Positions 23,421 through 43,520 of a DNA stretch of 64,000 nucleotides are shown here, in pieces. The first letter of the stretch is position 1. Each line of letters begins with the position of its first letter. The position numbers and the translations under genes were made by a program. The notes beneath the pieces were generated by a model. That model was not told where the DNA came from and did not search any database. It saw only the letters and a list, made by a program, of their open reading frames with translations. The stretch is from Actinoplanes sp. L3-i22 (GTDB lineage: Bacteria > Actinomycetota > Actinomycetes > Mycobacteriales > Micromonosporaceae). Where the stretch lies: assembly GCF_019704555.1 (NCBI RefSeq), contig NZ_AP024745.1, forward strand, positions 11,149,501-11,213,500. The letters are read 5' to 3'.

Positions 23421-23690
23421 GGGCGGGCTGAGCCGGCCGGGCCGGGCCGCGCGCCGGGCGGGCTGAGCCGGCCGGGCCGGGCCGCGCCCGGGCGGGCTGA
23501 GCCGGCCGGGCCGGGCCGCGCGCCGGGCGGGCTGAGCCGGCCGGGCCGGGCCGCGCGCCGGGCGGGCTGAGCCGGCCGGGCCGGGCCGCGCGCCGGGCGG
23601 GCTGAGCCGGCCGGGCCGGGCCGCGCCCGGGCGGGCTGAGCCGGCCGGGCCGGGCCGCGCCCGGGTGGGCTGAGCCGGGACCCGGGTGGG
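23421..23690. repeat. Minisatellite, 34/35-bp unit, about seven copies
   Basis: The unit begins GGGCGGGCTGAGCC and continues through two GGGCC blocks to CGCGC(GC)CC. Copies of 35 and 34 bp alternate, so neither length keeps a reading frame, and one TGA occurs per unit. An eighth, truncated copy ends near 23690. It lies between convergent genes (AlkB-like and DUF4328). Such arrays are prone to slippage. Confidence 0.85.
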
Positions 23691-24921: not shown

Positions 24922-25081
24922 CGGGCACCTCGCGCGGATCGGTGGGCTCAAGGCGCAGGGTAGCCGGGCCGGACAACGCGACATTGGGGGCGTTTTCGCT
25001 GATCACCGCAGGGATGGCGGAATTGCCGGTCGCTTCAGGTAACGGGGATGTTGCAAGTAGTTGACGAGCCGGATCAGAAAG

Positions 25082-25098
25082 TTACACTCCTAGTGTAA
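25082..25098. promoter_or_regulatory. Operator palindrome upstream of the ABC operon
   Basis: TTACACTCCTAGTGTAA is a perfect 7-bp inverted repeat with a 3-bp centre. It lies just before a TTGACC -35-like element (about 25103) and 54 bp before the first ATPase gene. The core CACTnnnAGTG recurs at 29962-29974 inside the same operon. Confidence 0.75.
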
Positions 25099-25151
25099 AT
25101 AGTTGACCATCACTCTCCACTGTGGATCCTCGCGGTCCGAACGAGGTGGCA

Positions 25152-26006
25152 ATGTCGACGAAACCCCCTGCTCCTGAGCTTGTTCTCGACCACATAACGG
25201 TTCGCTTCGGCGGGCTGGTCGCTCTCGATGACGTGTCCCTGCGGGTGCCCGCGGGGCGGATCATGGGGGTGATCGGGCCGAACGGGGCCGGTAAGACCAC
25301 GCTGTTCAACATCATCTGCGGGTTCGTGACGCCGACCGCCGGGGAGATCACCCTGGACGGGCGGCCCTGGCGACCCCGGCCGCACCACCTCAACCGGCTC
25401 GGTATCGCTCGCACGCTGCAGGGCGTGGGCCTCTTCAACGGCCTCACCGTGCTGGAGAACGTGCAGGTCGGCGCGCGCGGGCACCGATCCGGGACGGACC
25501 TCCCGCCGATCACGGCCAGCCCCGCAAAAGCCGCCGAACCGACGGGAACGGGCCGGGTCGACGACGAAACCGGCGCGGATCACGGGGCCACGGCCCGGCC
25601 GGAGAGCGCCCCACCCAAGGGCCGCGAGCGACGGTCCGAACAGGACGCCCGCGCGGCCCTGGAACGATGCGGCGTCGCGGAATACGCGCACGCGCATCCC
25701 GGCGCACTGCCCTACGCGATCCGCAAGCGGATCGAGCTGGCCCGCGCCCTCGCCGCCCGGCCCCGGATCCTGATGCTCGACGAGCCGGCCGGCGGCCTGG
25801 ACCCCGACGAGATCCACTGGCTGGCCGGGCTGATCCGCGCGACCGGCACCACGGTGCTGCTGGTCGAGCACCACATGGACCTGGTCATGTCGGTCTGCGA
25901 CGAGATCCTGGTGCTGGACTTCGGCAAGCCGATCGCGCTCGGCTCCCCCGCCGAGATCAGCGCGAACGACCGGGTGACCGAGGCCTACCTGGGAGCCGCC
26001 GCGTGA
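25152..26006 (+). CDS. LIV-type ABC importer ATPase (LivG-like)
   Basis: This is a 284-residue ATPase with the ATG at 25152 after a GAGG site. Walker A is GPNGAGKTT, Walker B is ILMLDEPAGG, and the switch His is in VEHHMDLV. The ABC signature region reads LPYAIRKRIELARAL in place of a canonical LSGGQ, a form tolerated in LivG-like proteins. Between the first helical segment (NVQVGARGH) and DARAALERC there is an insertion of about 60 residues, hydrophilic and rich in Ala, Pro and Gly. It is the first gene of a five-gene importer; the next gene overlaps by GTGA. Confidence 0.9.
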   Translation: MSTKPPAPELVLDHITVRFGGLVALDDVSLRVPAGRIMGVIGPNGAGKTTLFNIICGFVTPTAGEITLDGRPWRPRPHHLNRLGIARTLQGVGLFNGLTVLENVQVGARGHRSGTDLPPITASPAKAAEPTGTGRVDDETGADHGATARPESAPPKGRERRSEQDARAALERCGVAEYAHAHPGALPYAIRKRIELARALAARPRILMLDEPAGGLDPDEIHWLAGLIRATGTTVLLVEHHMDLVMSVCDEILVLDFGKPIALGSPAEISANDRVTEAYLGAAA

Positions 26007-26803
26007 GCGACGGGACCAGCGCGAACGACCGGCCCGGGAGCCGCCGCGGAAGAGCGGAACCGAACCTGGACGAGCCCTACCGGAAGACCACCCCACTGCT
26101 GGAGGTCGAGGACCTCACGGCCGGCTACGGCGCCGCCCCGGTCCTGCACGACGTCCGGCTCAGCGTGCGGCCCGGCGAGATCGTCGCGGTGCTGGGCGCG
26201 AACGGCGCCGGCAAGACCACCCTCCTGCGTACCCTCTCGGGTCTGGTGAAAGCGGACCACGGCCGGATCCGCTTCGACGGCGAGGACCTGCGCCGGACGA
26301 AGGTCGAGCAGATGGTCCGCCGCGGCATCGCGCACGTCCCGGAGGGCCGTGGCGTCGTCACCGAGCTGACCGTGGACGAGAACCTGCGGCTCGGCGGCCT
26401 GTGGCGACGTGACCGCGCGGACGCGACCCGCGCCCTGAACGAGGTCTACGACCTCTTCCCGGCGCTGGCACAACGGCGTGCCAGCGCCGGGCACCAGCTC
26501 TCCGGCGGCGAGCGGCAGATGCTCGCGCTGGGCCGCGCGCTGGTCGGGCGGCCGCGGTTGCTGCTGCTCGACGAGCCGTCGCTGGGCCTGGCCCCGAAGA
26601 TCACCGCCCAGATCCTGGCCCTCCTGCGGGACCTGCGGGACCGCACCGGGCTGGCGGTGCTGCTGGTCGAGCAGAACGTGCGCAGCGCGCTCTCGGTGGC
26701 CGACGAGGGCATCGTCCTGTCGCTCGGCCGCGTGGTCACCCGCAACTCCGCTGCCGATCTGCGTGATGACGCCGATCTGCGTCACGCCTACCTGGGGTTC
26801 TAG
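26003..26803 (+). CDS. LIV-type ABC importer ATPase (LivF-like)
   Basis: This is a 266-residue ATPase with a GTG start overlapping the previous stop. About 30 hydrophilic residues precede the domain. Walker A is GANGAGKTT, the signature is LSGGERQML, Walker B is LLLLDEPSLGL and the switch His is replaced by Q in VEQNV, normal for LivF. IAHVPEGRGVVTELTVDENL is characteristic of this family. It pairs with the LivG-like subunit. Confidence 0.92.
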   Translation: MSDGTSANDRPGSRRGRAEPNLDEPYRKTTPLLEVEDLTAGYGAAPVLHDVRLSVRPGEIVAVLGANGAGKTTLLRTLSGLVKADHGRIRFDGEDLRRTKVEQMVRRGIAHVPEGRGVVTELTVDENLRLGGLWRRDRADATRALNEVYDLFPALAQRRASAGHQLSGGERQMLALGRALVGRPRLLLLDEPSLGLAPKITAQILALLRDLRDRTGLAVLLVEQNVRSALSVADEGIVLSLGRVVTRNSAADLRDDADLRHAYLGF

Positions 26804-26805
26804 CG

Positions 26806-27684
26806 ATGGACAGATTCGTCTACCTGACCTTCGACGGGCTCAGCCGGGGCGCGGTCTACGCCGCGTTCGCGCTGGCCCTGGTGCTGATCTGGCGGGCCGC
26901 CCGGATCGTCAACTTCGCCCAGGGCGCGATGGCGGTGGCCGCCGTCTACGTGGCGTACTCGGTGACCGAGAAGACCGGCTCGTACTGGCTCGGTTTCGCC
27001 GCCGCGCTGGTCTTCGGCCTGCTGCTGGGCATCGCGGTGGAGAAGGCGGTGATGCGCTTCGTCGACCACTCGTCGCCGCTCAACGGCGTGGTCGTCGCGC
27101 TCGGCCTGGTGCTGATCGTGCAGGGGGTGCTCGGCATCGTCTACGGCAACGAGTTCCGCCCGGTGCAGACGCCGTTCCGGCGGGACGCGTTCGACATCGG
27201 CGGGATCGCGGTGCTCAGCCGCTACGACGTCTTCGTCTTCGCCGCGGTGGGCGCGGTGGTCATCGGGCTCACCGTGCTCTTCACCCGGACCGCGGTCGGT
27301 CTGCGGATGCGGGCCGCGGCGTTCGCGCCGGACGTCTCGCGGCTGCTCGGCGTCCCGGTCGGCGGCATGTTGACGCTGGGCTGGGCGCTGGCCGCCGCGG
27401 TCGGCTCGCTCGCCGGGATGCTGGTGGTCCCGACCGAGCTGGGCCTGAATCCGAACGCGATGGACGTGCTGTTCGTGTCCGCGTTCACCGCGGCCGTGGT
27501 GGGTGGTCTGGACAGCCCGATCGGCGCGGTGACCGGGGGGCTGATCGTCGGGCTGCTGCTCTCCTACGTCAGCGGTTATCTGGGCGCGACGGTGGCGCCG
27601 ATGGCGGTGCTGCTCCTGCTCGTGGTGGTGCTGCTGGGCCGGCCCGGCGGCCTCTTCTCCAGTTCGAAGGCGAGGCTGGCATGA
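26806..27684 (+). CDS. LIV-type ABC importer permease (LivH-like)
   Basis: This 292-residue inner-membrane permease has about eight hydrophobic segments. The N-terminal GLSRGAVYAAFALALVLIWRAARIVNFAQGAMA and the later GLRMRAAAFAPDVSRLLGVPV loop (ATPase contact) are LivH hallmarks, as is VVGGLDSPIGAVTGGLIVGLL. It starts 2 bp after the LivF-like stop, and the next gene overlaps by ATGA. Confidence 0.93.
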   Translation: MDRFVYLTFDGLSRGAVYAAFALALVLIWRAARIVNFAQGAMAVAAVYVAYSVTEKTGSYWLGFAAALVFGLLLGIAVEKAVMRFVDHSSPLNGVVVALGLVLIVQGVLGIVYGNEFRPVQTPFRRDAFDIGGIAVLSRYDVFVFAAVGAVVIGLTVLFTRTAVGLRMRAAAFAPDVSRLLGVPVGGMLTLGWALAAAVGSLAGMLVVPTELGLNPNAMDVLFVSAFTAAVVGGLDSPIGAVTGGLIVGLLLSYVSGYLGATVAPMAVLLLLVVVLLGRPGGLFSSSKARLA

Positions 27685-28697
27685 CGGACATCAAGGAGAA
27701 GCGCCCGGCGATCACCCCCGAGCAGACCACGAGCAAACCCCGGAAAAGACCACATCCGATTTGGTACGCGATAGCCGGCGCCGTCCTCATCGCGGCGCTC
27801 ACCTACTACCTGCCGCCGTTCCGGAACTACCAGCTGGCCACCGTCGGCGCGTACTTCACCGTGACCGCCGGCCTGACCGTCCTCACCGGACTCAACGGGC
27901 AGCTCTCGCTGGGCCACGGCGCCCTGATGGCCACCGGCGCGTACACGTTCGCGCTGACCCAGAACCGGTGGCTGACCATGCCGCTGAGTTTCCTGGCCGC
28001 CGTGCTCGCCACGGTCCTGGCGGGCGCGGTGATCGGGCTGGCCGCGGCCCGGCTGCGGGGTCCCTACCTGGCCGGGCTCACGCTCGCGGTCGCGGTCGTG
28101 GTCCCCTCGGTGGCGAGCACGTTCGACGACACGCTCGGCAGCGACATGGGCCTGTCGATCGCGCTCGACCCGCCGCCCGGGGTGATCCCGATGGAGCGCT
28201 GGCAGGCCTGGCTCTGCTGGGCCGGGGCGCTGCTCACCGCGCTGCTGCTGGCGTTGCTGGTGCGCGGCCGGTTCGGGCGGGACCTGCGCGCGGTGCGGGA
28301 CGACGAGACCGCGGCCCGGTTGGCGGGCGTGCACATCGCCCGTACCCAAATCCTGGCTTTTGTCGTCAGCGCGGCCTGCGCCGGCCTGGCCGGCGCCCTC
28401 TTCGCCTTCCTTGCCCAGAGTGTCTCGCCCGGCGCGTTCCCGCTGACGCTGTCGCTGTTCCTGGTGATGGCGATCGTGATCGGCGGCCTGGGCCGGCTGT
28501 TCGGCGCGCTGCTCGGCGCGTTGCTGCTGGTCCTGCTGCCGGCGCTGGCCCAGTCCGTCGCGGAGGGCTCCGGCTCACAGCATCTGGAGGGCAACCTCGC
28601 CCTGGTGATCTTCGGCGTGGTGCTCGTGGTCGTCATGCTCGCCGCCCCTGGCGGCCTCGCGTCAATCCGATTCACATCTATCAGGAGGAAACGATGA
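27681..28697 (+). CDS. LIV-type ABC importer permease (LivM-like)
   Basis: This 338-residue permease has a soluble N-terminus of about 25 residues and some eight to nine hydrophobic segments. LivM signatures are GLNGQLSLGHGALMATGAY, the ATPase-contact loop GRDLRAVRDDETAARLAGVHIARTQ, and the GGLGRLFGALLGALLLVLLP segment. Its 3' end contains the ribosome site (aggagga) of the binding-protein gene, whose start overlaps its stop. Confidence 0.93.
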   Translation: MTDIKEKRPAITPEQTTSKPRKRPHPIWYAIAGAVLIAALTYYLPPFRNYQLATVGAYFTVTAGLTVLTGLNGQLSLGHGALMATGAYTFALTQNRWLTMPLSFLAAVLATVLAGAVIGLAAARLRGPYLAGLTLAVAVVVPSVASTFDDTLGSDMGLSIALDPPPGVIPMERWQAWLCWAGALLTALLLALLVRGRFGRDLRAVRDDETAARLAGVHIARTQILAFVVSAACAGLAGALFAFLAQSVSPGAFPLTLSLFLVMAIVIGGLGRLFGALLGALLLVLLPALAQSVAEGSGSQHLEGNLALVIFGVVLVVVMLAAPGGLASIRFTSIRRKR

Positions 28698-29956
28698 AAC
28701 GCACCACGGCGGTGTTCCTCGCCGTCCTCTTGTTCGCGGGAGCATGCGACTCCGGCAGCGGAGGCGGCAGCTCCTCATCCACCACTACGCCAGGGGTCAC
28801 CGACACCGAGGTCGTCGTCGGCACGCACATGCCGCTGACCGGACCGGCCGCGGCCGGATACTCCAAGATCTCGCCGGCCACGAAGGCCTACTTCGACTTC
28901 GTGAACGCGGGCGGCGGGATCAACGGCCGGAAGATCACCTACAAGGTCAAGGACGACGGCTACAACCCGGCGACCACCCAGCAGGTGGTCCGGGAGCTGG
29001 TGCTGCAGGACAAGGTGTTCGCGATCCTGAACGGCCTGGGCACCCCGACGCACTCCGGCGTGCTGGACTTCCTGAAGACCAACAAGGTGCCGGACCTCTT
29101 CGTGGCCAGCGGCAGCCGCAGCTGGAACCAGCCGGACAAGTATCCGGGCACGTTCGGCTTCAACCCGGACTACACGGTCGAGGGCAAGATCCTCGGCACG
29201 TACGTCAAGGAGAACCTGGCCGGCAAGAAGGCCTGCTTCCTCGGCCAGGACGACGACTTCGGCAAGGACAGCCTGGCCGGGATCGAGAAGGTCCTGGGCG
29301 CGGTGGTCGCCAAGCAGAACTACGTGACCAGCAACCCGAACGTCGGCCCGCAGATGGGCGCGCTCAAGGCGGCCGGCTGCGAGGTGGTCCTGCTGGCCAC
29401 CATCCCGGGCTTCACCGCGCTGTCGATCGGCACCGCCGCGAAGATCGGCTTCAAGCCGCAGTTCGTGGTCAGCAACGTGGGCGCCGACCCGACCACCGTC
29501 GGCAAGGCGCTGGGTGCGGCCGCGCCGCTGCTGGAGGGCGTGGTCTCGGCGAACTACCTGCCGATCAACACCGACGACACGAACCCGTGGATCCAGCTCT
29601 TCAAGAAGGTCAACGACCAGTACAACGCGGGTGCGGAGTTCGACAACAACATCGTCTACGGGATGGCCGTGGCGTACCTGTTCGTGCAGTCGCTGCAGTC
29701 CGCGGGCAAGGATCTGACCCGTGACGGCATCGTCGCCGCGGTGCAGAAGAACGGATTCCAGGGCCCGGGTCTGGTCCCGCTGCGCTTCGCCGACAAGGAT
29801 CATTCGGGGTACGGCGGTGAACAGCTCACCAAGGTGCAGGGCGGCAAGGCGGTGTTCTTCGGTCAGCCGTACACCACCGACGACGCCGACGGCGCCGTGC
29901 AGCCCTACACCGGTCAGGCCGTGACACCGCCGCAGAACGGGATCCCGGCGGCGTAA
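28694..29956 (+). CDS. LIV-type ABC importer substrate-binding lipoprotein
   Basis: This is a 420-residue protein. A signal peptide ends in a lipobox-like FAGAC (Cys18), then a Ser/Gly/Thr linker leads to a Peripla_BP_6 domain: VVVGTHMPLTGPAAAGYSKI..., GGGINGRKITYKVKDDGYNPATT, VFAILNGLGTPTHSGVLDFL, and FGFNPDYTVEGKILGTYV. The AGGAGGA site 5 nt upstream is the strongest in the operon, consistent with high expression. The ligand is not readable; this branch includes binders of amino acids, amides, aromatic acids and fatty-acid-like ligands. Confidence 0.92.
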   Translation: MKRTTAVFLAVLLFAGACDSGSGGGSSSSTTTPGVTDTEVVVGTHMPLTGPAAAGYSKISPATKAYFDFVNAGGGINGRKITYKVKDDGYNPATTQQVVRELVLQDKVFAILNGLGTPTHSGVLDFLKTNKVPDLFVASGSRSWNQPDKYPGTFGFNPDYTVEGKILGTYVKENLAGKKACFLGQDDDFGKDSLAGIEKVLGAVVAKQNYVTSNPNVGPQMGALKAAGCEVVLLATIPGFTALSIGTAAKIGFKPQFVVSNVGADPTTVGKALGAAAPLLEGVVSANYLPINTDDTNPWIQLFKKVNDQYNAGAEFDNNIVYGMAVAYLFVQSLQSAGKDLTRDGIVAAVQKNGFQGPGLVPLRFADKDHSGYGGEQLTKVQGGKAVFFGQPYTTDDADGAVQPYTGQAVTPPQNGIPAA

Positions 29957-29961
29957 TATCC

Positions 29962-29974
29962 GCACTCTGAGTGC
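29962..29974. promoter_or_regulatory. Second CACTnnnAGTG palindrome inside the operon
   Basis: GCACTCTGAGTGC lies between the binding-protein stop and the AGGAGGT site of the first SDR. The core matches the palindrome at 25082-25098, so the same repressor could bind both and give the catabolic genes their own promoter. Confidence 0.6.
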
Positions 29975-29995
29975 AAGTTACTAGGAGGTAATGCG

Positions 29996-30742
29996 ATGGC
30001 GGACCAAGTGGCAGTCGTGACCGGAGCAAGCCGGGGAATCGGGTTCGCCATCGCGCAACGCTTCGTCGCCCAGGGCGCGAAAGTGGCGATCACCGGGCGG
30101 GACGCGGACGCCCTGGCGGCCGCGGTGAAGGAGCTGGGCGGCCCGGAGGTCGCTCTCGGGGTGGCCGGCAAGGGCGACAACGCGGACCACCGGGCAGCGG
30201 TGATCGACCAGGTCAACGCGGCGTTCGGGCCGGTCACCACCCTGATCAACAACATCGGGATCAACCCGGCGTACGGGCCGCTGGCGACGCTCGACCTGAA
30301 CGCCGCCCGCAAGATGGCCGAGGTCAACCTGATCGGCACGCTCGGCTGGGTGCAGGAGGCGCTGCGTGGCGGCCTCGCCGGGTCGGGCGGCTCGATCGTC
30401 AACATCTCGTCGGTCTCCGGGGTCCGCCCGGCGCCCGGCATCGCGTTCTACGGCACCACCAAGGCCGCGCTGATCCACCTGACCGAGGAGCTGGCCGTCG
30501 AGCTCGCCCCGAAGATCCGGGTGAACGCGGTCGCCCCGGCCGTGGTCAAGACCCGCTTCGCCGCCGCGCTGTTCGAGGGCCGGGAGGAGCAGGTCGTCGC
30601 GACCTACCCGCTGAAGCGCCTCGGCGTGCCGGAGGACGTGGCCGGCACGGTCGCGTTCCTCTGCTCGCCGGACGCGTCCTGGATCACCGGCCAGACCATC
30701 GTCCTCGACGGCGGCGTCACCCTGACCGGGGTGGTCGAGTGA
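29996..30742 (+). CDS. SDR family oxidoreductase, FabG-like
   Basis: This is a 248-residue classical SDR preceded by AGGAGGT. The cofactor motif is TGASRGIG (residues 9-16), LINNIG replaces the usual NNAG, and the catalytic residues are Ser in NISSVSG with Tyr/Lys in YGTTK. The C-terminal [17 protein letters not shown] is typical of FabG-like enzymes. In this operon it could reduce or oxidise a hydroxy- or keto-acyl-CoA. The next gene overlaps by GTGA. Confidence 0.9.
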
Positions 30743-31512
30743 AGCGGGTCGTCGTCACCGGCGCCGGCGGGGGCATCGGCGCGGCGCTGGCCCGGCGGTT
30801 CGCCGCCGACGGCGCGAAGGTCGTGGTCAGCGACATCAACCCGGACGCGGCCGGCAAGACCGCGGCCGAGATCAACGGAATCGCCGTCGCCGCTGACGCC
30901 GCCTCGGAAGAAGATGTCCGGAACCTCGTCGAGCGGGCGCACGCGGAGCTGGGCGGGATCGATCTGTTCTGCTCGAACGCCGGCGTGCTCAGCGCCGGTG
31001 ACGAGAACACCCCGGACCAGCAGTGGGAGCGCGACTTCGGGGTGAACGTGATGTCGCACGTCTACGTCACCCGGGCACTGCTGCCGAAGTGGCTGGACTC
31101 CGGCGAGCCGAAGCGGCTGCTGATCACGGTCAGCGCGGCCGGCCTGCTGACCCTGCTGGGCAGCGCGACCTACTCGGTGACCAAGCACGCGGCGCTCGCG
31201 TACGCGGAGTGGCTGCGGGCGACGTACGCGCACCGGGGTCTGATCGTCCAGGCGCTGTGCCCGCAGGGCGTCCGCACCGACATGCTGACCGGCGGGAACG
31301 CGCGGGGCAGCGGGAGCGCGGCGCTGCTCTCCGAGGGCGCGCTGGAACCGTCGGAGGTCGCCGAGCTGGTCGCTGCGTCCGTACGGGAAAATCAGTTTTT
31401 GATCCTCCCTCATCCGGAGGTGGCGGAGTACTACCGCTTGCGCGCGGCCGATCCGGACCGTTGGCTGGGTGGCATGAACAAGATGCAGCGCGGGTTCGAG
31501 GCCCGGAAATGA
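30739..31512 (+). CDS. SDR family oxidoreductase
   Basis: This is a 257-residue SDR with a GTG start. TGAGGGIG is at residues 7-14, CSNAGV holds the NAG motif, the catalytic Ser is in [20 protein letters not shown], and Tyr/Lys are in YSVTK. The C-terminus ([20 protein letters not shown]) is longer and more polar than in FabG, so the substrate probably differs from that of the neighbouring SDR. It overlaps the kinase gene by ATGA. Confidence 0.9.
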
Positions 31513-32489
31513 AGGGGCTGGACCTGGCGAAGCTCCAGGCCTATCTGGACAGTCCGCCGCTGAGCGCGACGATGTTCGCCGGTGGGCGGTCGAACCTGAC
31601 CTACGCGGTGACCGACGGGACGAACCGCTGGGTGCTGCGCCGGCCGCCGCTCGGGCACGTGCTGCCGACCGCGCACGACATGGCCCGCGAGCATCGCGTG
31701 CTGTCCGCGCTCTCGCAGGCCGGCTTCCCGGTTCCGGCGCCGGTCGTGCTTTGTTCTGATATTTCGGTCATCGGTGCTCCGTTCTATCTCATGGAGCACG
31801 TCGACGGAAAGATCTACCGGGACGCCGCGGACCTGGCGAAGATCGACCTGCGCGCGGTGACGTTCACGCTGGTCGACACGCTCGCCGACCTGCACGCGCT
31901 GGAGCCGGAGAAGATCGGGCTGGGCGACTTCGGCAAGCCGGAGGGCTTCAACGCCCGCCAGGTGCGGCGCTGGAAGCAGCAGCTCGACGCGTCCCGCAGC
32001 CGTGAGCTGACCGGGATCGAGGAGTTGCACGCCCGGCTGGCCGCGGAGATCCCGGCTGGTGGACCGGGCACGGTCGTGCACGGCGACTTCCGCCTGGACA
32101 ATGTGCTGATCGGCCCGTCCGGCGAGGTCAACGCGGTGCTCGACTGGGAGATGTCGACACTCGGCGATCCGCTCAGCGACCTCGCCCTGATGCTGGTCTA
32201 CGCCGGCCGCCCGCTGCTGTTCAAGGACGGCAAGCCGTTCGCCCCGATCGACCTGCCCGGCCACCCCTCGCTCGACGAGATGGCCGCCCGGTACGCCGAA
32301 CGCAGTGGCCGCGACGTCGGCGACCTGCACTGGTACGTCGGGTTCGCGGCGTTCAAGCTCGCCGTCATCCTGGAGGGCGTGCACTACCGCTACACCAAGG
32401 GCCAGACCGTCGGCGCCGGCTTCGACACCGTGGGCGCGATGGTGCCCGAGCTGATCGAGCAGGGCCACCGAGCGCTGGAAGGACACTGA
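31509..32489 (+). CDS. APH-family phosphotransferase, ACAD10/11-kinase-like
   Basis: This is a 326-residue kinase-like protein. It shows the glycine-rich start [26 protein letters not shown], the catalytic loop HGDFRLDN (Asp193) and the metal-binding Asp212 in [16 protein letters not shown]. This subfamily is the one fused to acyl-CoA dehydrogenase in mammalian ACAD10/ACAD11 and includes LvaA of Pseudomonas levulinate catabolism, which phosphorylates 4-hydroxyacyl-CoA (established for those proteins). Here the acyl-CoA dehydrogenase gene overlaps directly (TGATG), so a matching two-step reaction is a reasonable inference. Confidence 0.88.
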
Positions 32490-33694
32490 TGGACTTCGAG
32501 TTCGACGCGACGACCGAGGACTACCGCAAGCGGCTGCTCGCGTTCATGGATGAGCACATCTATCCGTTCGAGGGCGATTTTCACGCCGCGGGCGACGGCT
32601 GGGAGGTGCCCCCGGTCCTGTCCACCATGCAGGCCGCGGCGAAGGCGGCCGGCCTCTGGAACCTGTTCCTGCCGGGTGAGCACGGCGCCGGGCTGACGAA
32701 CCTGCAGTACGCGCCGCTGGCCGAGATCATGGGGCACAGCCCGGCGATCGCGCCGGCCGCGTTCAACTGCAACGCCCCGGACACCGGCAACATGGAGGTG
32801 CTGGCCGAGTTCGGCACCCCAGCGCAGCAGGAACAGTGGCTGAAGCCGCTGCTCGAGGGTTCCATTCGCTCCGCGTTCGCGATGACCGAGCCGCAGGTCG
32901 CGTCGTCGGACGCGACGAACATCGGCACCCGGATCGAACGCGACGGCGACGACTACGTCATCAACGGCCGGAAGTTCTACATCACCGGCGCGATGAACCC
33001 GAACTGCAAGATCTTCATCGTGATGGGCAAGACCGACCCGGACGCGGACCGGCACGTCCAGCAGAGCCAGATCCTGGTCCCCCGGGACACCCCCGGCCTG
33101 ACCGTCGTGCGCGGCATGACCGTCTTCGGCTACGCCGACGGCGACCACGGCGGCCACGCCGAGCTGCTCTTCGAGAACGTCCGGGTGCCGGCGAGCAACC
33201 TGATCGGCGTCGAGGGCGGCGGCTTCGCGATCTCCCAGGCCCGGCTCGGCCCCGGCCGGATCCACCACTGCATGCGGCTGATCGGGATGGCCGAACGCGC
33301 GCTGGAGCTGATGTGCAAGCGGGCGCTGGCCCGCACCCCGTTCGGCAAGCCGCTCGCCGAGCAGGGCGTGATCCAGGACTGGATCGCCGAGTCCCGGGTC
33401 CGGATCGAGCAGGCCCGCCTGCTCGTGCTCAAGGCCGCCTGGCTGATGGACACGGTCGGCAACAAGGGCGCGCACACCGAGATCCAGTCCATCAAGATCG
33501 TGGTGCCGCAGACCGTCGAATGGATCCTGGACAAGGCGATCCAGGCCCACGGCGCGGTCGGCACCAGCCAGGACACGCCGCTCGCCCAGCTCTGGGTGGC
33601 GGCCCGCACGCTGCGTCTCGCCGACGGCCCCGACGAGGTGCACAAGCGCTCGCTGGCCCGGCGGGAGCTGAACCGTTACCGGAGTCGTACGTGA
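32489..33694 (+). CDS. Acyl-CoA dehydrogenase family protein, ACAD11/LvaC-like context
   Basis: This is a 401-residue FAD enzyme. Typical blocks are [72 protein letters not shown] and the C-terminal [43 protein letters not shown]. It is the kind of dehydrogenase associated with APH kinases, where in ACAD11 and LvaC systems it eliminates phosphate from a 4-phosphoacyl-CoA rather than simply oxidising. The exact reaction here is inferred from context. Confidence 0.92.
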
Positions 33695-33722
33695 CCTCGC
33701 TGAATCTTTGCCGGAGTCGTCA

Positions 33723-34298
33723 GTGACCACACCTCCTCGCGTCGACGGTCGCACCGCGCGGTCCGAACGGACCCGCAACGCGATCGTCGACGCCCACCTC
33801 CGGTTGATCGCCGAGGGCGACCTGCGCCCGACCGCGGACCGGATCGCCAAGCTGGCCGGGGTCTCGCTCCGGGCACTGTGGAGCCACTTCGCCGACATGG
33901 AGGCGCTGATGGCGGCCAGCGGGCAGCGGGTCCTGGAGCAGCGGGACGTGTCGTACCAGCCGATCGCGCCGGACCTGCCGCTGGCCGAGCGGATCGAGTC
34001 GTTCTGCCGGCAGCGGGCCCGGATGCTGGAGGAGATCGCGCCGGCGGCTCGGGCGTCCGCGCTCAAGGAGCCGTTCTCCAGCGCCCTGCAGCGGTATCGG
34101 CGGGTGCACGTGGCCCGCGTCCGGGACGAGCTGACCAGCACGTTCGCCGAGGAGATCGGGGCGGACGAGGAGTTGCTGAACGCACTGACCGCGATCAGCC
34201 TCTGGCCGACGTGGTCGACCTGGCGCGAGGCGATGGACCTGCCGGTGGAGGTGGCCCAGGCCGCCCTCGCCCGCGGCGTCCGCGCCCTGCTCACCTGA
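33723..34298 (+). CDS. TetR family regulator of the ABC/catabolic operon (inferred)
   Basis: This is a 191-residue regulator; the GTG at 33723 follows a GGAG site, and a TTG at 33708 is an alternative. The HTH lies at about residues 15-60 (RNAIVDAHLRLIAEGDLRPTADRIAKLAGVSLRALWSHFADME). A duplicated ccggagtcgt word (33680 and 33710) overlaps the upstream coding end and supplies the ribosome site. As the last gene of the operon it is the best candidate to bind the CACTnnnAGTG palindromes. Confidence 0.85.
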   Translation: MTTPPRVDGRTARSERTRNAIVDAHLRLIAEGDLRPTADRIAKLAGVSLRALWSHFADMEALMAASGQRVLEQRDVSYQPIAPDLPLAERIESFCRQRARMLEEIAPAARASALKEPFSSALQRYRRVHVARVRDELTSTFAEEIGADEELLNALTAISLWPTWSTWREAMDLPVEVAQAALARGVRALLT

Positions 34299-34349
34299 CG
34301 TCGGGACGGGTGGGCCGGCCTCCGATCCGGGGCCGGTTCCCCCGTTCGA

Positions 34350-36917
34350 TCAGTTCGGCGAGGTCAGCCCGAGCCGGGTGGCTTCGGCGGCGGCCTGGCC
34401 GCGGCGGGAGACGCCGAGTTTGCGGAGGATCGCGGAGACGTGGTGGTGGACCGTCTTGGTGGACAGGAACAGCCGCTCGGCGATCTCCACATTCGACAGA
34501 CCCTGCTGGACCAGCGTCAGCACCTCCACCTCGCGCCGGGTCAGCTCGGCCGGGTTGCCCCGGGTCCAGCGCTGCGGGCCGCGCGGAATGTCCCGGACGC
34601 CGCGCGACCGCAGCCGGCGGGTGACGACCGCCGCGGCCGGGCGGGCGCCGAGCCGCTGGAACTCGGCGAGCGAGGCCCGCAGGTCGGCCACGTCCGGGCT
34701 GCCGGCCAGGGCCAGCGCGGCATCGTAGGAGCAGTCGCGTTTGCGCCAGCGCTCGGCGGCCGCGTTCACGTCGCCGGCGAGCTGCACGGCGTACGGCTCA
34801 AGCAGTGTGATCTTGTGAAGGTCTTTCCCGGGCTCCCCGGCGAGCCGGCGCAGCCAGGCGAGCTCGCCCAGCACCCATGCGGACCGCCGGCGTTCCGCGA
34901 GCTCCCAGGTGGCGGCGATCTCCGGCTCGACCGGCAGCCCGGCCAGCCACGCCGCCTCGGCCCGCGCGGTCGCCGCCGGCGCCAGGTACTGCAGCTCGGT
35001 CCGCCCGACGGTCAGCGCGCGCATCTCGTCCAGGACCGGCCACGGGTCGGTGTCGCCGCGCCGGGCCGCGATCAGCCCGACCACGCTCAGCGCGATGATC
35101 CGCAGCAACGGCACCGGCCCGCAGTTGGCCAGGATCCACTCGGCGTCCGCGGCCGCCGCCTCCCAGTCGCCCATGTCCAGGTGGTAGCGGGCGCGGTGGG
35201 CGAGCACGTAGTGCTTCCAGCCGTCCAGCCCCAGGTCGTCGCAGACCGTGACGCCCCGGTCCAGCCAGGACGCCAGGTGGTAGGAGCGGACCCGGGTCAT
35301 CGCCCAGCCGGCGTGGATGTACGCGCGGCCGATGTGCTCCTCCAGGCCCTCCCGCTCGGCCGTGGCGAGGCTGCGCTCCAGCTTGCCGATCCCCTCCGGC
35401 TCGCCGTTGAGCATCATCATCGTGCCCAGGTTGTTCAGGCTGTGCACGACGACCTCGGCATCGTCGTACTCCTCGCCGAGCCGCAGCGCCCGGGTGCCGA
35501 GCTCGATCGCGTCGGCGTACTCCTCGATGTTCAGCGCGACCGCCGCCTGGTTCGTGTACGCGACCGCCAACTCCCGCCCCGGCATCGACTCCAGCAGCCG
35601 CAACGCCTCCCGGCCGGCCTCGGCCGCGTCGTCCGGGAAGCCGCCGCACCACAGCCGGCGGGACAGGTTCGACAGCGCGACGCCCTCGCCGCGCTGGTCG
35701 CCGATCCGCCGGCGCTCCCGGATCGCCTCCCGCAGCGCCGCGATCGAGTCCGGCGTCTGCTCGGTCAGATAGCACTCGTAGGAGCGGCGCTCCAGCAGGT
35801 CGGCGCGGTCCTTCGGGGCCAGGTCCGAGGCGAAGCGCAGGGCTCGGGCGTACTGCGCCGCCGCCTCCCGATGCGCGCCCGACGCCGCGGCCTGCTCGGC
35901 GGCCCGCGGCGCCCAGTCCAGGACGACCGCCGCGTCGCCGGCCGCCTCCGCGTGGTGCGCGATCCGGCTCGGGTCGGCGGTCTTCTCCAGCAGCGCCGCC
36001 AGGACCCGGCGATGCAGCTCCAGCCGCCGATGCGGGGCCAGCGACTCCTCGACGGTGAGCCGCGCCAGCTCGTGCCGGAACGCCACCCCGCCGGGCACGC
36101 TGACCAGCATCCCCGCTCGCAGCGCCTCGTCCAGTCCGTCCTCTTCGACGATCACGTGCATTTCGGCGTACGGCGGAATGATCGAGACCACGTCGAGAAC
36201 CGCGCCCGCCGCGGGACTCAGCCGGGCCGCCCGGGCGAGCACCGCGTCCCGCACGGTCAGCGGCACCTCCCCGCCGTCCCGGGCCAGCACCTCGGTCACG
36301 AAGAACGGGTTCCCGCAGGTCGCCCGGTGCAGCGCGGGCCCGTCCCGGCCGTGCTCCGCGGCGAGCTCGCCGACCGCCGCGGCGGACAGCGGCTCCACGC
36401 TCAGCCGCCGGATCGCCGCGCCCTGCAGCTCGCCGAGCAGCCGCCGCAGCGGATGCCCGCGGTCCACCTCGTCACTGCGGTAGGTGGCGATCACCAGCGC
36501 CGGGATCGTGCCGATCCGCCGGCCGAGCAGGCTCAGCACGTCCAGGGTCGCCTCGTCCGCCCAGTGCAGGTCCTCCAGCACCAGGATCAGGCCGGGCCGC
36601 TCCCGCACGTCCCGGATGATCCCGGCGGCCAGCTCGTACGACTTCCCGGCGAAGTCGGTCAGCTCGTCCATCTCCAGGAACGGCCCGAGCGGGCGCGGGG
36701 TGTAGAGCGGATCGCAGGCGCCCCAGAGCACCGGCCGGCTCGCCCGCGCCTCCGCCCGGAACTGCCGGACCAGCGCCGTCTTGCCGCCGCCGGCCTCCCC
36801 GCCGAGCAGCACCAGGACCCCACTCCGGGTGGCGGCGACGGACGCGTGGGCCTGGTGCAGCGCAGCGAGCTGGACGGACCGCTCCAGCAGCCCGTTCCGG
36901 GCAGACAACTCCCCCAT
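34350..36917 (-). CDS. Large LuxR-family ATPase regulator (LAL type)
   Basis: This is an 855-residue regulator. The N-terminal AAA/NTPase domain has Walker A GGEAGGGKTALV (about residues 39-50) and Walker B LILVLEDLHWADEATLD. The middle 450 residues are TPR-like helical repeats. The C-terminal LuxR HTH is LTRREVEVLTLVQQGLSNVEIAERLFLSTKTVHHHVSAILRKLG. LAL proteins (MalT-like) activate operons in response to a ligand; the target is unknown. It is convergent with the TetR gene and has about 180 bp of upstream DNA with no obvious dyad. Confidence 0.92.
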   Translation of the reverse strand: MGELSARNGLLERSVQLAALHQAHASVAATRSGVLVLLGGEAGGGKTALVRQFRAEARASRPVLWGACDPLYTPRPLGPFLEMDELTDFAGKSYELAAGIIRDVRERPGLILVLEDLHWADEATLDVLSLLGRRIGTIPALVIATYRSDEVDRGHPLRRLLGELQGAAIRRLSVEPLSAAAVGELAAEHGRDGPALHRATCGNPFFVTEVLARDGGEVPLTVRDAVLARAARLSPAAGAVLDVVSIIPPYAEMHVIVEEDGLDEALRAGMLVSVPGGVAFRHELARLTVEESLAPHRRLELHRRVLAALLEKTADPSRIAHHAEAAGDAAVVLDWAPRAAEQAAASGAHREAAAQYARALRFASDLAPKDRADLLERRSYECYLTEQTPDSIAALREAIRERRRIGDQRGEGVALSNLSRRLWCGGFPDDAAEAGREALRLLESMPGRELAVAYTNQAAVALNIEEYADAIELGTRALRLGEEYDDAEVVVHSLNNLGTMMMLNGEPEGIGKLERSLATAEREGLEEHIGRAYIHAGWAMTRVRSYHLASWLDRGVTVCDDLGLDGWKHYVLAHRARYHLDMGDWEAAAADAEWILANCGPVPLLRIIALSVVGLIAARRGDTDPWPVLDEMRALTVGRTELQYLAPAATARAEAAWLAGLPVEPEIAATWELAERRRSAWVLGELAWLRRLAGEPGKDLHKITLLEPYAVQLAGDVNAAAERWRKRDCSYDAALALAGSPDVADLRASLAEFQRLGARPAAAVVTRRLRSRGVRDIPRGPQRWTRGNPAELTRREVEVLTLVQQGLSNVEIAERLFLSTKTVHHHVSAILRKLGVSRRGQAAAEATRLGLTSPN

Positions 36918-38755: not shown

Positions 38756-39844
38756 TCAGAGCCGGACGACCGACCGGGCGCCCTCGCCCCGGGCCATCCG
38801 CTCGAAGGCGGCCGGCACGCCGGCCAGCTCGATCCGGTCGGTGATCAGGTGGTCGAGCGACAACCGGCCGTCGAGCACGTCCCGGGCCAGCGCGGGCACC
38901 GCCACGTCCGGGTCGGCCTGGCCGTAGACCGAGGCCCGCAACGTCCGCGCCGACGAGAAGATGTCGAGCGCGGCGATCTGCACCAGGTCGTCGGCCGCGC
39001 CCATCCCGACCACGGTGACCTGGCCGCCGCGCCGGGTGGCCCGCCACGCGGCGCGGATCGTCGACGCCCGGCCGACGCATTCGATGGCGTGGTCGGCGCC
39101 GCGTCCCTCGGTGCGCACCCGGATGTCCTTGGAGAGCGCGTCCGTCGACACCACGAAGTCGGTCGCGCCGGCCGCCTCGGCCAGCCCCTTCTTCGCCTCG
39201 CTGACGTCGACCGCGATGACCTGGCCGGCGCCGGCCGCCCGGGCCGCCGCGACGACCGACAGGCCGACCCCGCCGAGCCCGATGACCAGCACCGATTCGC
39301 CCGGCTGCACGTTCGCGGTGTTCCGGACCGCGCCGGACCCGGTCAGCACCGCGCACCCGAGGAGCGCCGCAACGTCAAAATCCAATTGCGACGGTACGGC
39401 GATGACCGCGTTCTCCGGGGCCACCACCTGCTCGGCGAACGCGCCCAGCCCGAGGGTCACGTGCACCGGCGCGCCGTCGAGCGTGATCCCGTTCTCCAGC
39501 GCCGCGACGCCGGACGACGTGGAGCAGAGCCACGGCTGCCCGCGCTCGCAGAACCAGCAGTGCCGGCACGGCGGCTGCCAGTTCAGCACCACGTGGTCGC
39601 CGACCGCGGCCCGGGTGACGTGCTCGCCGATCTCGACGACCTCGCCGGCCGCCTCGTGGCCGAGGACGAGCGGGTGCGGCGGGCGCAACGTCCCGTTGAT
39701 CATCGACAGGTCGGAGTGGCAGACGCCGGCCGCCCGGACCCGGACGCGGACCTGGCCGGGCCCGATCTCGGGCAGGCGCAGCTCCTCGACGGTGGCCGGC
39801 CCGTCCGGCTCGCGAACGACCAGCCCGGGCACATAGTGGGTCAT
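38756..39844 (-). CDS. Zinc-dependent alcohol dehydrogenase
   Basis: This is a 362-residue MDR enzyme. Catalytic zinc ligands are Cys in AAGVCHSD, His-Glu in LGHEAAGEV and a further Cys in LLGCAVLTG; the structural zinc site is CRHCWFCERGQPWLC. The NAD-binding motif is GLGGVGLS. It would interconvert a primary alcohol and aldehyde. It overlaps the aldehyde dehydrogenase gene (ATGA), forming an alcohol-to-acid pair under the divergent TetR. Confidence 0.93.
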   Translation of the reverse strand: MTHYVPGLVVREPDGPATVEELRLPEIGPGQVRVRVRAAGVCHSDLSMINGTLRPPHPLVLGHEAAGEVVEIGEHVTRAAVGDHVVLNWQPPCRHCWFCERGQPWLCSTSSGVAALENGITLDGAPVHVTLGLGAFAEQVVAPENAVIAVPSQLDFDVAALLGCAVLTGSGAVRNTANVQPGESVLVIGLGGVGLSVVAAARAAGAGQVIAVDVSEAKKGLAEAAGATDFVVSTDALSKDIRVRTEGRGADHAIECVGRASTIRAAWRATRRGGQVTVVGMGAADDLVQIAALDIFSSARTLRASVYGQADPDVAVPALARDVLDGRLSLDHLITDRIELAGVPAAFERMARGEGARSVVRL

Positions 39845-41250
39845 CGCTGAATCGCCTTGACCTGCTGGAACTCCTCCAGGCCGAACTGACCCAGCTCCCG
39901 GCCGACGCCGGACTGCTTGTACCCGCCGAACGGGGCGAACGGGTTGAACGAGCCGCCGTTCACGTCCACCGCGCCGGTCCGGATCCGCCGGGCCACCGCC
40001 AGGGCGTGCTCGTCGCCGCCCCAGACGCCACCGGCCAGGCCGTACTTCGAATTGTTGGCGATCTCGACGGCCTCGTCGTCGGAGTCGAACGGGATGATCG
40101 ACAGCACCGGGCCGAAGATCTCCTCCTGGGCCAGCTCGCTGTCCGGGTCGACGTCGGCGAAGACGGTCGGCGCGACGAAGTGCCCGGTGTCCGGCAGCGG
40201 CGCGTCCAGTCCGCCGGCCACCAGCCGGGCCCGCGCCCGCTCGATGAAGCCGCGGACCCGGTCGCGCTGGGCGGCGGAGACCAGCGGGCCGAGCCGGGTG
40301 GCCGGGTCGAACGGGTCGCCGACGGTGTAACCGGCCGCGGTCTTGGCCGCGAGCGCGACCGCCTCGTCGTAGTGACCGCGGTGCACCAGCATCCGGGTCC
40401 ACGCCGTGCAGGTCTGCCCGGAGTTCAGGAACGCGTTGCCGACCCCGACCTTGACCGCCTTGACCAGGTCGGCGTCGTCCAGGATCACGTTCGCCGACTT
40501 GCCGCCGAGCTCCAGGGAGACCTTGGCGATCCGGTCGGCGGCGGCGTGGGTGATGGCCCGGCCGGTCGCGGTGGAACCGGTGAACGAGATCAGGTCGACG
40601 TCCGGGTGGCCGGCGATCGCCGCGCCCACCGCGGCGCCGGTGCCGGTGACCAGGTTGAGCACGCCGGGCGGCAGGCCGGCCTCGTCGGCCGCGTCGAGCA
40701 GCAGGTACGCCACCAGCGGCGTGAGCTCGCTCGGCTTGAGCACCACCGTGCAGCCGGCCGCGAGCGCCGCGCCGACCTTCGCCACCACCTGGTGCAGCGG
40801 ATAGTTCCACGGGGTGATCGCACCGACCACGCCGGCCGCCTCGCGCACGATCAGCGAGTTGCCGATGGTCCGTTCCTCCGCGGGCGCGAGCGCCAGATCG
40901 GCGTACCCCCGAAGGACCGTGAGGGGCAGGCCCGCCTGGACCGCCTGCGCGATCTTGACCGGTGTCCCGAGCTCCTGGCCGACCGTGCGGGCGATGTCCG
41001 CGGCGCGGGCCGCGAGCGCCCGGTGCAGGCGGTCCAGGTGGGCGCCGCGCTCCGCCATCGGCAGCGCGGACCAGCCGTCGAAGGCCTGCCGGGCGGCCGA
41101 GACAGCGAGGTTCACGTCCTCCGGCGTGCCGGCCGGGACGTGCCCGATGACCTGCTCGGTGTACGGGTTCTCCACCTCGATCCGCTCGCTGGAGTCCGGC
41201 GGCACCCACGCGCCACCGATGTAGAGCTGTTCGCGGAATTCCGACGTCAT
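39841..41250 (-). CDS. Aldehyde dehydrogenase
   Basis: This is a 469-residue NAD(P)-dependent ALDH. WNYPLHQVVAKVGAALAAGCTVVLKPSE, SFTGSTATG, the general base Glu in LELGGKSANVIL and the nucleophile Cys in NSGQTCTAWTRML are present, as is EEIFGPVLSIIPFDSDDEAVEIAN. It oxidises an aldehyde to the acid. The start overlaps the TetR stop, so TetR-ALDH-ADH is one operon. Confidence 0.94.
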   Translation of the reverse strand: MTSEFREQLYIGGAWVPPDSSERIEVENPYTEQVIGHVPAGTPEDVNLAVSAARQAFDGWSALPMAERGAHLDRLHRALAARAADIARTVGQELGTPVKIAQAVQAGLPLTVLRGYADLALAPAEERTIGNSLIVREAAGVVGAITPWNYPLHQVVAKVGAALAAGCTVVLKPSELTPLVAYLLLDAADEAGLPPGVLNLVTGTGAAVGAAIAGHPDVDLISFTGSTATGRAITHAAADRIAKVSLELGGKSANVILDDADLVKAVKVGVGNAFLNSGQTCTAWTRMLVHRGHYDEAVALAAKTAAGYTVGDPFDPATRLGPLVSAAQRDRVRGFIERARARLVAGGLDAPLPDTGHFVAPTVFADVDPDSELAQEEIFGPVLSIIPFDSDDEAVEIANNSKYGLAGGVWGGDEHALAVARRIRTGAVDVNGGSFNPFAPFGGYKQSGVGRELGQFGLEEFQQVKAIQR

Positions 41251-41915: not shown

Positions 41916-41944
41916 CGCAAAAACTTACGCCGCTAGTTTATGCG
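41916..41944. promoter_or_regulatory. Divergent operator dyad
   Basis: CGCAAAAACT (41916-41925) and AGTTTATGCG (41935-41944) form an inverted repeat with one mismatch and a 9-bp centre. TAGTTT (rightward) and TAAGTT (leftward) -10-like hexamers fall inside the dyad, so binding would block both promoters. Confidence 0.75.
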
Positions 41945-41981
41945 GAAGCTGCGACGTACATCACTCCTGAGGGGAACCAGC

Positions 41982-43520
41982 ATGACGACTCTGTCCCTGG
42001 CCACAGTTCTGGCGGAGAGCGCACGCCGGTACCCGGAGAAGGTCGCGGTGGTCGACGCGGGCGCCCGGATCACCTATCGGGAGCTGTGGCAGCAGACCCG
42101 GGAGTACGCGGCCGGCCTGCAGGCGCTCGGCGTCGGCCCGGGCAGCACGGTCGCCGTGATGATCCCGAACGTCGCCGACTTCCCGCGGGTCTACTACGCC
42201 GCGCTGGCCGTGGGCGCCCGGGTGGTGCCGGTGTCGCTGCTGCTCCAGCCGGCCGAGGTGGCCTACGTGCTGACCGACAGCCAGGCCGACCTGATCGTCA
42301 CCCACTCCGCGTTCCTGCAGGTGGGCGCGGCCGCGGCACAGCTCGCCGGCACCCCGCTGGTCAACGTCGGGCCGCTGCCGGCCGAGCTGCCGAGCCCGCC
42401 GCGGCGCCTGGAGGAGGTGTCCGCCGGCGTCCCGGCGCTGCGCACCTACGTGACCCGCGAGGCCGAGGACGTCGCGGTGATCCTCTACACCAGCGGCACC
42501 ACCGGCCAGCCGAAGGGCGCCCTGCTCACCCACCTCAACCTGGTGATGAACGCCGCGGTGAACGTGTTCGACGTGCACCCGCTCACCGGCGACGACATCG
42601 TGCTGGGCTGTCTGCCGCTGTTCCACACGTTCGGCCAGACGGTCGGGATGAACGCGACGTTCCGGCTCGGCGGGACGCTCGTGCTGCTGCCCCGGTTCTC
42701 CGGCGAGGCGGCGATCGACCTGATCCTGCGGGAGCACGTGACGATCTTCCACGGCGTGCCGACCATGTACATCGGCCTGCTGGAGGCGGCGGCGAAGGCC
42801 GAGCAGCTGCCCAAGCTCAAGCTCTGCGTCTCCGGTGGGGCGTCGCTGCCGGTCGCCGTGCTGGAGCGGTTCGCCGAGACGTTCGGCTCGCACATCTGGG
42901 AGGGCTACGGTCTTTCCGAGACATCGCCTACGGCGACCACCAACCAGCCGGCGTACGGCGCCAAGCCCGGCACCGTCGGGCATCCGATCTGGGGCGTCGA
43001 GGTGGAGATCGCCCGGCCCGAGGTGCCGGAACGCATCGAGTTCCTGCCGGACGGCGAGCTGGGCGAGATCGTGATCCGCGGGCACAACATCTTCGCCGGC
43101 TACCTGAACCGCCCGGAGGCGACCGCCGAGGCCATCGTCGACGGCTGGTTCCGTACCGGTGACCTGGGGATCAAGGACGACGAGGGCTTCATCAGCATCG
43201 TCGACCGGACCAAGGATCTGATCATCCGCGGCGGCTTCAACGTCTACCCCCGCGAGGTGGAGGAGACCCTCGCCCGGCACCCGGCGATCCAGCAGGTCGC
43301 GGTGATCGGCGTGGCTGACCCTACGCACGGCGAGGAGATCTGCGCGGTGGTGGTGCTCGACGAGAAGGGCTTGACCGAGCAGGAGCTGATCGACTGGTCG
43401 CGCGAGCGGCTGGGCAAGCACAAGTACCCGCGGCAGGTGCGGTTCGCCGAGTCGCTCCCGCTCGGGCCGAGCATGAAGGTCCTCAAGCGGGAGCTGCGCA
43501 AGCAGTACTCAGGCCAGTAG
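41982..43520 (+). CDS. AMP-forming long-chain fatty-acid-CoA ligase family
   Basis: This is a 512-residue adenylate-forming ligase. Motifs are YTSGTTGQPKGALLTH, GYGLSETSP, YLNRPEATAEAIVDGWFRTGDLG and the C-terminal catalytic Lys in GPSMKVLKRELRKQY. The ATG at 41982 follows GAGGGGA. It would activate a carboxylic acid as acyl-CoA, which fits downstream of the divergent ADH/ALDH pair (alcohol to aldehyde to acid to acyl-CoA). The 3' end overlaps the convergent NUDIX gene by 12 bp. Confidence 0.93.
   Translation: MTTLSLATVLAESARRYPEKVAVVDAGARITYRELWQQTREYAAGLQALGVGPGSTVAVMIPNVADFPRVYYAALAVGARVVPVSLLLQPAEVAYVLTDSQADLIVTHSAFLQVGAAAAQLAGTPLVNVGPLPAELPSPPRRLEEVSAGVPALRTYVTREAEDVAVILYTSGTTGQPKGALLTHLNLVMNAAVNVFDVHPLTGDDIVLGCLPLFHTFGQTVGMNATFRLGGTLVLLPRFSGEAAIDLILREHVTIFHGVPTMYIGLLEAAAKAEQLPKLKLCVSGGASLPVAVLERFAETFGSHIWEGYGLSETSPTATTNQPAYGAKPGTVGHPIWGVEVEIARPEVPERIEFLPDGELGEIVIRGHNIFAGYLNRPEATAEAIVDGWFRTGDLGIKDDEGFISIVDRTKDLIIRGGFNVYPREVEETLARHPAIQQVAVIGVADPTHGEEICAVVVLDEKGLTEQELIDWSRERLGKHKYPRQVRFAESLPLGPSMKVLKRELRKQYSGQ

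Follow-up and report, generated by a model that had tools for sequence, protein, structure and literature searches.

An Actinoplanes operon that links a LIV-type importer and a TetR-family regulator to an ACAD11-type kinase and acyl-CoA dehydrogenase, and its probable part in the breakdown of 4-hydroxy acids

The window analysed here is a stretch of 64,000 nucleotides (positions 11149501-11213500 of contig NZ_AP024745.1) from the 12.0-Mb, single-contig genome of Actinoplanes sp. L3-i22, and the subject of this report is a tight operon of ten + strand genes within it, which has its 3' end at 34298 and encodes, in this order, LivG, LivF, LivH, LivM, LivK, two short-chain dehydrogenases/reductases (SDR1 and SDR2), an APH-family kinase, an acyl-CoA dehydrogenase (ACAD) and a TetR-family regulator (Table 1). 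An earlier note on this DNA had listed ten tightly packed genes with a complete LIV importer, two SDRs, a kinase, an ACAD and a TetR, and we found all of them on this strand, the importer having its two ATPases, two permeases and one binding lipoprotein. Overlaps of four bases join LivG to LivF, LivH to LivM, LivM to LivK, SDR1 to SDR2 and SDR2 to the kinase, and gaps of 2, 39 and 28 bp lie between LivF and LivH, LivK and SDR1, and ACAD and TetR, respectively. The TGATG overlap that the note had read between kinase and ACAD is visible in the frames, which have one base in common and therefore leave no room for a gene between them; no counterpart of LvaB, from the Pseudomonas putida lva operon, was found at this junction, the only place where it was sought. 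No CoA ligase is among the ten genes. The nearest relatives of the kinase come from Actinoplanes.

Table 1. Features of the operon and of its surroundings, in positions of the window
Feature	Position	Strand	Basis
Candidate promoter: -35 TTGACG 25061-25066, 16-bp spacer, -10 TACACT 25083-25088	25061..25088	+	sigma-70-like scan
Palindromic operator, predicted TetR site	25082..25098	.	perfect 7-bp arms
LivG-type ABC ATPase	25152..26006 (alternative GTG start 25122)	+	Pfam ABC_tran, BCA_ABC_TP_C
LivF-type ABC ATPase	26003..26803	+	Pfam ABC_tran; NCBIfam UrtE and LivF models below cut-off
LivH-type permease	26806..27684	+	Pfam BPD_transp_2
LivM-type permease	27681..28697	+	Pfam BPD_transp_2
LivK-type substrate-binding lipoprotein	28694..29956	+	Pfam Peripla_BP_6; Cys18 invariant in 34 aligned LivK proteins
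SDR1, classical SDR	29996..30742	+	Pfam adh_short_C2; NCBIfam PRK07231 subfamily over cut-off; top solved relative DHRS4
SDR2, classical SDR	30739..31512	+	Pfam adh_short
APH-family kinase, predicted 4-hydroxyacyl-CoA kinase (D193, N198)	31509..32489	+	Pfam APH; alignment with ACAD11 kinase domain
ACAD11-type ACAD, predicted phosphate eliminator (R252, R257, H260, R263, D379)	32489..33694	+	ACAD11 identity, motif, tree
TetR-family regulator, predicted binder of 25082-25098	33723..34298	+	Pfam TetR_N; accompanies operator in related loci
Aldehyde dehydrogenase, syntenic neighbour, putative pathway role	39844..41250	-	Pfam Aldedh
AMP-forming acyl-CoA ligase, candidate activating enzyme	41940..43520	+	Pfam AMP-binding; NCBIfam fatty-acid-CoA-ligase-like below cut-off

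Papers from 2024 and 2025 describe the ACAD10/11 reaction; in the available parts of PMC12440821 and PMC11342911, D220 of the ACAD11 kinase domain, D753 of its ACAD domain, and R626, H634 and R637 in the HCMR region are given as catalytic or required residues, and the domains of ACAD10 can be replaced by Burkholderia orthologues. Residue numbers in PMC12440821 are one higher than the structure-chain positions, and this offset underlies our matches, apart from the one to R86. The window kinase is 37% identical to the kinase domain of mouse ACAD11 over 291 aligned positions; its D193 and N198 line up with the catalytic D220 and N225, its R150 with R176 (a CoA-contacting Arg), and its R60 with an Arg adjoining the alpha-C Glu, for which the one-residue offset gives 84, so that the paper's R86, likewise a CoA-contacting Arg, is matched only by this position next to the Glu. 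In the search of solved structures, the kinase scored 238 bits against 9o56, 180-184 against ACAD11, 168 against 3dxp, which bears the name 'putative acyl-CoA dehydrogenase', 47 against 9fsg and 43 against 3ats. Among 118 kinase relatives, 111 have the strict motif, five retain the Asp and the Asn within a variant of it, and in two the motif was not located. Membership of the kinase in the ACAD10/11-type family, by comparison with mouse ACAD11, is thus well supported at the level of sequence.

The ACAD is 54% identical to the ACAD domain of mouse ACAD11 over 389 aligned positions and scored 441 bits against the Mycobacterium abscessus structure 4hr3 and 428-433 against ACAD11 structures, the next relative having 153. 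It keeps the phosphate-handling residues R252, H260 and R263 (R626, H634 and R637 in ACAD11), also R257, and the catalytic Asp, D379, in the motif LADGPDEVH (D753 in ACAD11). Among ACAD-like proteins from 151 loci, RLGPGR.HHCMR was found in 112 of the 113 with an identity of 50% or more to the window ACAD (the single miss is an apparently damaged protein) and in none of the 42 others (<45%); the wider Asp motif was found in 102 of the 113, and eight of the other 11 show an ADG string, leaving three for which no such string was shown. In a tree of 40 rows, which included neither LvaC nor ACAD10, carries a long-branch warning and is rooted for display only, a split with 100/99 support sets the window ACAD, together with mouse ACAD11 and 4hr3, apart from the conventional ACADs and from two kinase-adjacent ACADs. 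We had considered adjacency of kinase and ACAD as sufficient proof of the pair, and dropped it since two loci pair a kinase relative with a motif-less ACAD of another kind. The earlier note's assignment to an ACAD10/11-type pair therefore stands, with ACAD11 as the reference, on the scores and catalytic residues of both proteins and on the tree for the ACAD; a grouping with unrelated subfamilies, which the note had named as the result that would speak against it, was not what this comparison with ACAD11 gave. It is well supported that the ACAD is of the ACAD11 type, and elimination of a 4-phosphate to give 2-enoyl-CoA is its predicted reaction.

A perfect palindrome, TTACACTCCTAGTGTAA, of which the earlier note made no mention, begins exactly where that note had placed the start of the locus, at 25082, and its left arm contains the -10 of the candidate promoter. 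This promoter was the sole sigma-70-like site found in 24900-34500, shuffled sequences giving a mean of 0.3. Without mismatch, TTACACTCCTAGTGTAA has one site in the whole 12-Mb genome; with up to two mismatches, 83 sites were found in 73 loci, including three stretches of the window's own genome, and five control palindromes had 0-2 matches. Of these sites, 70, in 69 related loci, are located just upstream of Liv genes, the invariance of their arms being partly a product of site selection. Matches to at least five of the six bases of TTGACA at a spacing of 15-19 accompany 69 of 71 sites (the window's and the 70 related ones), where about one was expected from shuffles, and the -35 played no part in choosing the sites. 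The natural reading is that the operon's own TetR would repress through 25082-25098: with the inducer absent, TetR would sit on the palindrome and block the -10. A wider regulon was also considered and not accepted, because the two further genomic sites at up to two mismatches compare with five per strand for a reversed-pattern control; and a second operator before SDR1, the palindrome GCACTCTGAGTGC with perfect 6-bp arms at 29962-29974, is conserved only in part among relatives and is not claimed.

Conservation was followed from the kinase in a scan of the genome collection, and the counts refer to the best 80 of 311 relatives. In 44 of these 80 loci, the kinase is at least 70% identical to that of the window; SDR1, SDR2, kinase, ACAD and TetR are present in all 44, LivK in 41 and the operator (up to two mismatches) in 38, and therefore the gene order is not due to chance. 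The three loci without LivK comprise one whose contig ends just upstream, one in which a LivG-like match and a LivK-cluster frame of 131 codons persist upstream, so that the importer is perhaps reduced, and one other. In the remaining 36 loci, from more distant genera, the kinase was found in 36, the ACAD in 35, SDR2 in 31 and SDR1 in 18 at the thresholds used, and in six Nocardiopsis loci, which lack LivK, the genes for the four enzymes follow one another without interruption.

Further, we followed the importer from LivK in 121 genomes of the window's own family, drawn evenly from a larger group, with E up to 1e-90 for both LivK and kinase. LivK was present in 59 genomes (61 places), the kinase in 84 and both in 49 (p ~0.001); six of the ten LivK genomes that lack a kinase at this cut have a 47-54% identical one adjoining LivK. 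At the 48 LivK places examined we found the TetR at 34, the operator at 31 and kinase plus ACAD at 18, and the neighbouring genes include two for acyl-CoA dehydrogenases that form a pair, as well as genes for a thiolase and MaoC and for an aldehyde dehydrogenase and a CoA ligase. One dehydrogenase of the pair is IpdE2-like (steroid-ring) and the other pimeloyl-CoA-dehydrogenase-like, both far below cut-off, and one of the two, ACADb, occurs at 22 of the 48 places. A second arrangement occurs in six loci of the same family, from two genera (L132-L137), with LivGFHMK, kinase, ACAD and CoA ligase and with a different TetR and different SDRs; their LivK and kinase branch apart from those of the window, and the LivK branch includes two more loci, in whose examined DNA no kinase was found.

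In the phylum-wide search (E up to 1e-80), LivK was found in four of 396 genomes, including that of the window; of the other three loci, L154 and L155 have kinase, ACAD and ligase adjoining LivK with the order turned round, and L156 does not. We therefore examined 150 genomes of the family of L154 and L155 (f8), which was chosen after these two genomes had been seen: seven genomes have LivK and, at E up to 1e-90, 11 have a kinase related to that of L154; all seven LivK genomes belong to these 11 (p = 1.1e-9 by genome; 1.7e-6 by genus, five of five genera among 8 of 85). Without the two genomes, the overlap is five of five among 9 of 148 (p = 2.3e-7), or three of three genera among 6 of 83 (p = 2.2e-4), relatedness of the genomes reducing the effective counts of all these co-occurrences. 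LivK and kinase lie 3.1-4.8 kb apart in five of the seven genomes and 27 and 40 kb apart in the other two, and the five close loci (L154, L155, L157-L159) have a CoA ligase and SDR genes, four of them a thiolase and three MaoC. It looks real from these genome comparisons, with the co-occurrence in f8 as the strongest evidence, that importer and kinase would serve one pathway.

Acid-breakdown regions with importer, ligase, kinase and ACAD, several of them with thiolase, MaoC and SDRs, are thus seen in two actinobacterial families (L132-L137, L154, L155, L157-L159). In locus L146, LIV-type genes and a CoA ligase stand divergent from kinase and ACAD; no LIV gene set was found in the examined DNA of twelve plasmid neighbourhoods (of 245 records matched) other than that of the Embleya plasmid described below. 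ABC genes are present at the edge of two of these twelve, two ATPases in one and one ATPase with two permeases in the other. Near kinase and ACAD on plasmids, there are also genes annotated as phosphotriesterase and SMP-30/gluconolactonase (L090, 11544-12527; L086, 2645-3733), possible lactone openers, so that gamma-lactone substrates would fit.

Among solved structures, SDR2 is closest to a (3R)-hydroxyacyl-CoA dehydrogenase (94 bits), followed by generic SDRs. The residues that follow the second strand of an SDR indicate its preference for NADP(H) or NAD(H); SDR1 has GRD and SDR2 has SDI at this place, which suggests from the residues that SDR1 uses NADP(H) and SDR2 NAD(H). It is possible that the two form an oxidation-reduction pair that sets the 4-hydroxyl. 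The acyl-CoA ligase gene 7.6 kb downstream of the operon is the only CoA ligase identified nearby and is a candidate for the activation enzyme that the operon lacks: its counterpart is located near the importer unit in five other loci, in four of which the aldehyde dehydrogenase is also found, and a homologue of 47-52% identity follows kinase and ACAD in L132-L137, immediately after the ACAD, and in L154. The aldehyde dehydrogenase also lies near the kinase and ACAD genes of a further locus, in which no importer was found in the stretch examined. A thiolase 72% identical to the one that neighbours the unit in relatives is encoded about 10.3 Mb away in contig coordinates, and none of the reference genes was found beside it in the 18 kb examined. 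Upstream of the operon, the GC-rich stretches 22870-23570 and 24189-24745 contain repetitive frames rich in proline, arginine and alanine, and 23698-24984 on the - strand is a proline-rich frame with membrane-like segments.

From these results we presume, with a probability of roughly 0.7, that this is a TetR-controlled uptake-and-entry operon, in which a LIV importer and SDRs are combined with a kinase and an ACAD that would remove a 4-hydroxyl by way of phosphate. In this scheme, the LIV-type importer would take up a carboxylic acid, a CoA ligase encoded outside the operon (the best candidate being 41940-43520) would activate it, one or both SDRs would set the oxidation state or the stereochemistry of the 4-oxo/4-hydroxy group, the kinase would phosphorylate the 4-hydroxyacyl-CoA, and the ACAD would eliminate the phosphate to give a 2-enoyl-CoA for ordinary beta-oxidation. 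The earlier note had proposed a catabolic operon for 4-hydroxy or 4-keto acids, of which the pair chemistry (residues, scores and ACAD tree) and the linkage to the importer are supported; the importer itself may be wider in range than 4-hydroxy acids.

Several observations weigh against this reading. LivK was found in none of the 36 loci from more distant genera, though the kinase is present in every one of them; co-occurrence in the window's own family is weaker than in f8 (49 of 59 LivK genomes, among 84 kinase genomes of 121); and the f8 query came from the LivK-linked L154, so that kinases of this kind were favoured. The solved relatives of LivK are weak, the best at 70 bits, and hence say little on the ligand, and the literature around one of them, PDB 4n03, offered nothing useful among the matches listed. 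Finally, 22 of the 34 loci with LivK and TetR have no kinase and ACAD within the examined DNA, and therefore this importer also works with other acyl-CoA gene sets and the imported acid may be a precursor; since the unit of LivK, TetR and operator also occurs without the pair, specificity for 4-hydroxy acids need not be assumed for the importer, and the dehydrogenase pair that accompanies many such units is a hint that the acid could be bulky or cyclic.

One alternative is that the importer takes a larger acid (alicyclic, terpenoid-like, steroid-like, or a lactone), from which the 4-hydroxyacyl-CoA arises later, the operon being part of a longer pathway. The LivK-TetR unit often stands beside the dehydrogenase pair and a thiolase or MaoC, whether kinase and ACAD are present or not, and the two SDRs exceed the single LvaD that the available text of PMC6692424 gives for the lva operon; however, nothing closer to that dehydrogenase than 44% identity was found in the window genome, and the Actinoplanes group has a pared-down operon of importer, SDRs, kinase, ACAD and TetR only. 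We regard a larger acid as unlikely, while taking it seriously. A further alternative, in which the substrates are branched-chain or other amino acids and the importer adjoins catabolic genes for another reason, agrees with the Pfam placement of its parts in families of ABC proteins and of branched-chain amino acid transport and with its NCBIfam matches to LIV and urea models, all of which are below cut-off; the kinase, however, co-occurs with it in a second family with rearranged gene order, and one operator precedes the whole operon, which makes this improbable. Slightly less probable still is the idea that the operon might scavenge extracellular gamma-lactone-type molecules, including the hormone-like butyrolactones of neighbouring actinobacteria, as opened 4-hydroxy acids, which would combine removal of a signal with uptake of food. 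We dropped, as very improbable, the idea that the kinase is one of the resistance-type or other small-molecule phosphotransferases and plays no part in acyl-CoA metabolism, despite its membership in Pfam APH and despite the names 'Aminoglycoside phosphotransferase' and 'Aminoglycoside phosphotransferase-like protein' given by the depositors of 9o56, its top solved relative, and 9fsg, because its scores of 23-25 bits against the listed aminoglycoside 3'- and macrolide 2'-phosphotransferases are low beside those to ACAD11 and 3dxp, its matches to NCBIfam resistance models are far below cut-off, and the phosphate-type ACAD adjoins it in 44 of 44 loci.

If the uptake-and-entry reading holds, ACAD10/11 chemistry is placed in an actinobacterium, alongside a dedicated importer and under one predicted switch, and therefore the natural substrate could be searched for through the binding protein and the regulator rather than by guesswork. 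It also suggests that many genes annotated merely as 'phosphotransferase family protein' or 'acyl-CoA dehydrogenase' may belong to this pathway. The earlier expectation that a dedicated ABC importer would be new for this chemistry is apparently right: among the matches listed from the open-licence literature, judged by titles and abstract openings, none described an ABC importer for 4-hydroxy/4-oxo acids with a kinase-ACAD pair.

Among known systems, LIV importers of branched-chain amino acids have the same two ATPases, two permeases and binding lipoprotein, but the window importer is linked to acyl-CoA genes, and its LivG has the signature LPYAIRKR, without the usual glycine, which is missing also in 54 of 56 parsed relatives. 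(The window LivG has a long stretch of 95 residues before the signature, against 41-66 in 52 of the 56.) The Embleya plasmid NZ_CP108785 (L168, 1033-11020) is alike in having a kinase, a motif-bearing ACAD, a CoA ligase and an ABC importer, and differs in that its importer reads by inspection, without a family search, as sugar-type (Rbs-like) and that an alpha/beta hydrolase is included. The lva operon of P. putida (LvaA-G and LvaR) likewise has a separate kinase, a phosphate-eliminating ACAD and an SDR for a 4-oxo/4-hydroxy acid, as far as the available parts of PMC6692424 and PMC12440821 describe it; its own features there are the acetate-permease-type transporter (LvaG with LvaF), the in-operon ligase LvaE, LvaB, the single SDR LvaD (PMC6692424) and a sigma54-dependent regulator. 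The window operon has instead a LIV ABC importer, a TetR, two SDRs, no LvaB-like gene at the kinase/ACAD junction and a ligase outside the operon. Mammalian ACAD10 and ACAD11 join, in one polypeptide, a kinase and an ACAD that belong to the same families as those of the window and share their catalytic residues (compared with ACAD11), whereas here they are two genes that share one base and are accompanied by an importer and a regulator.

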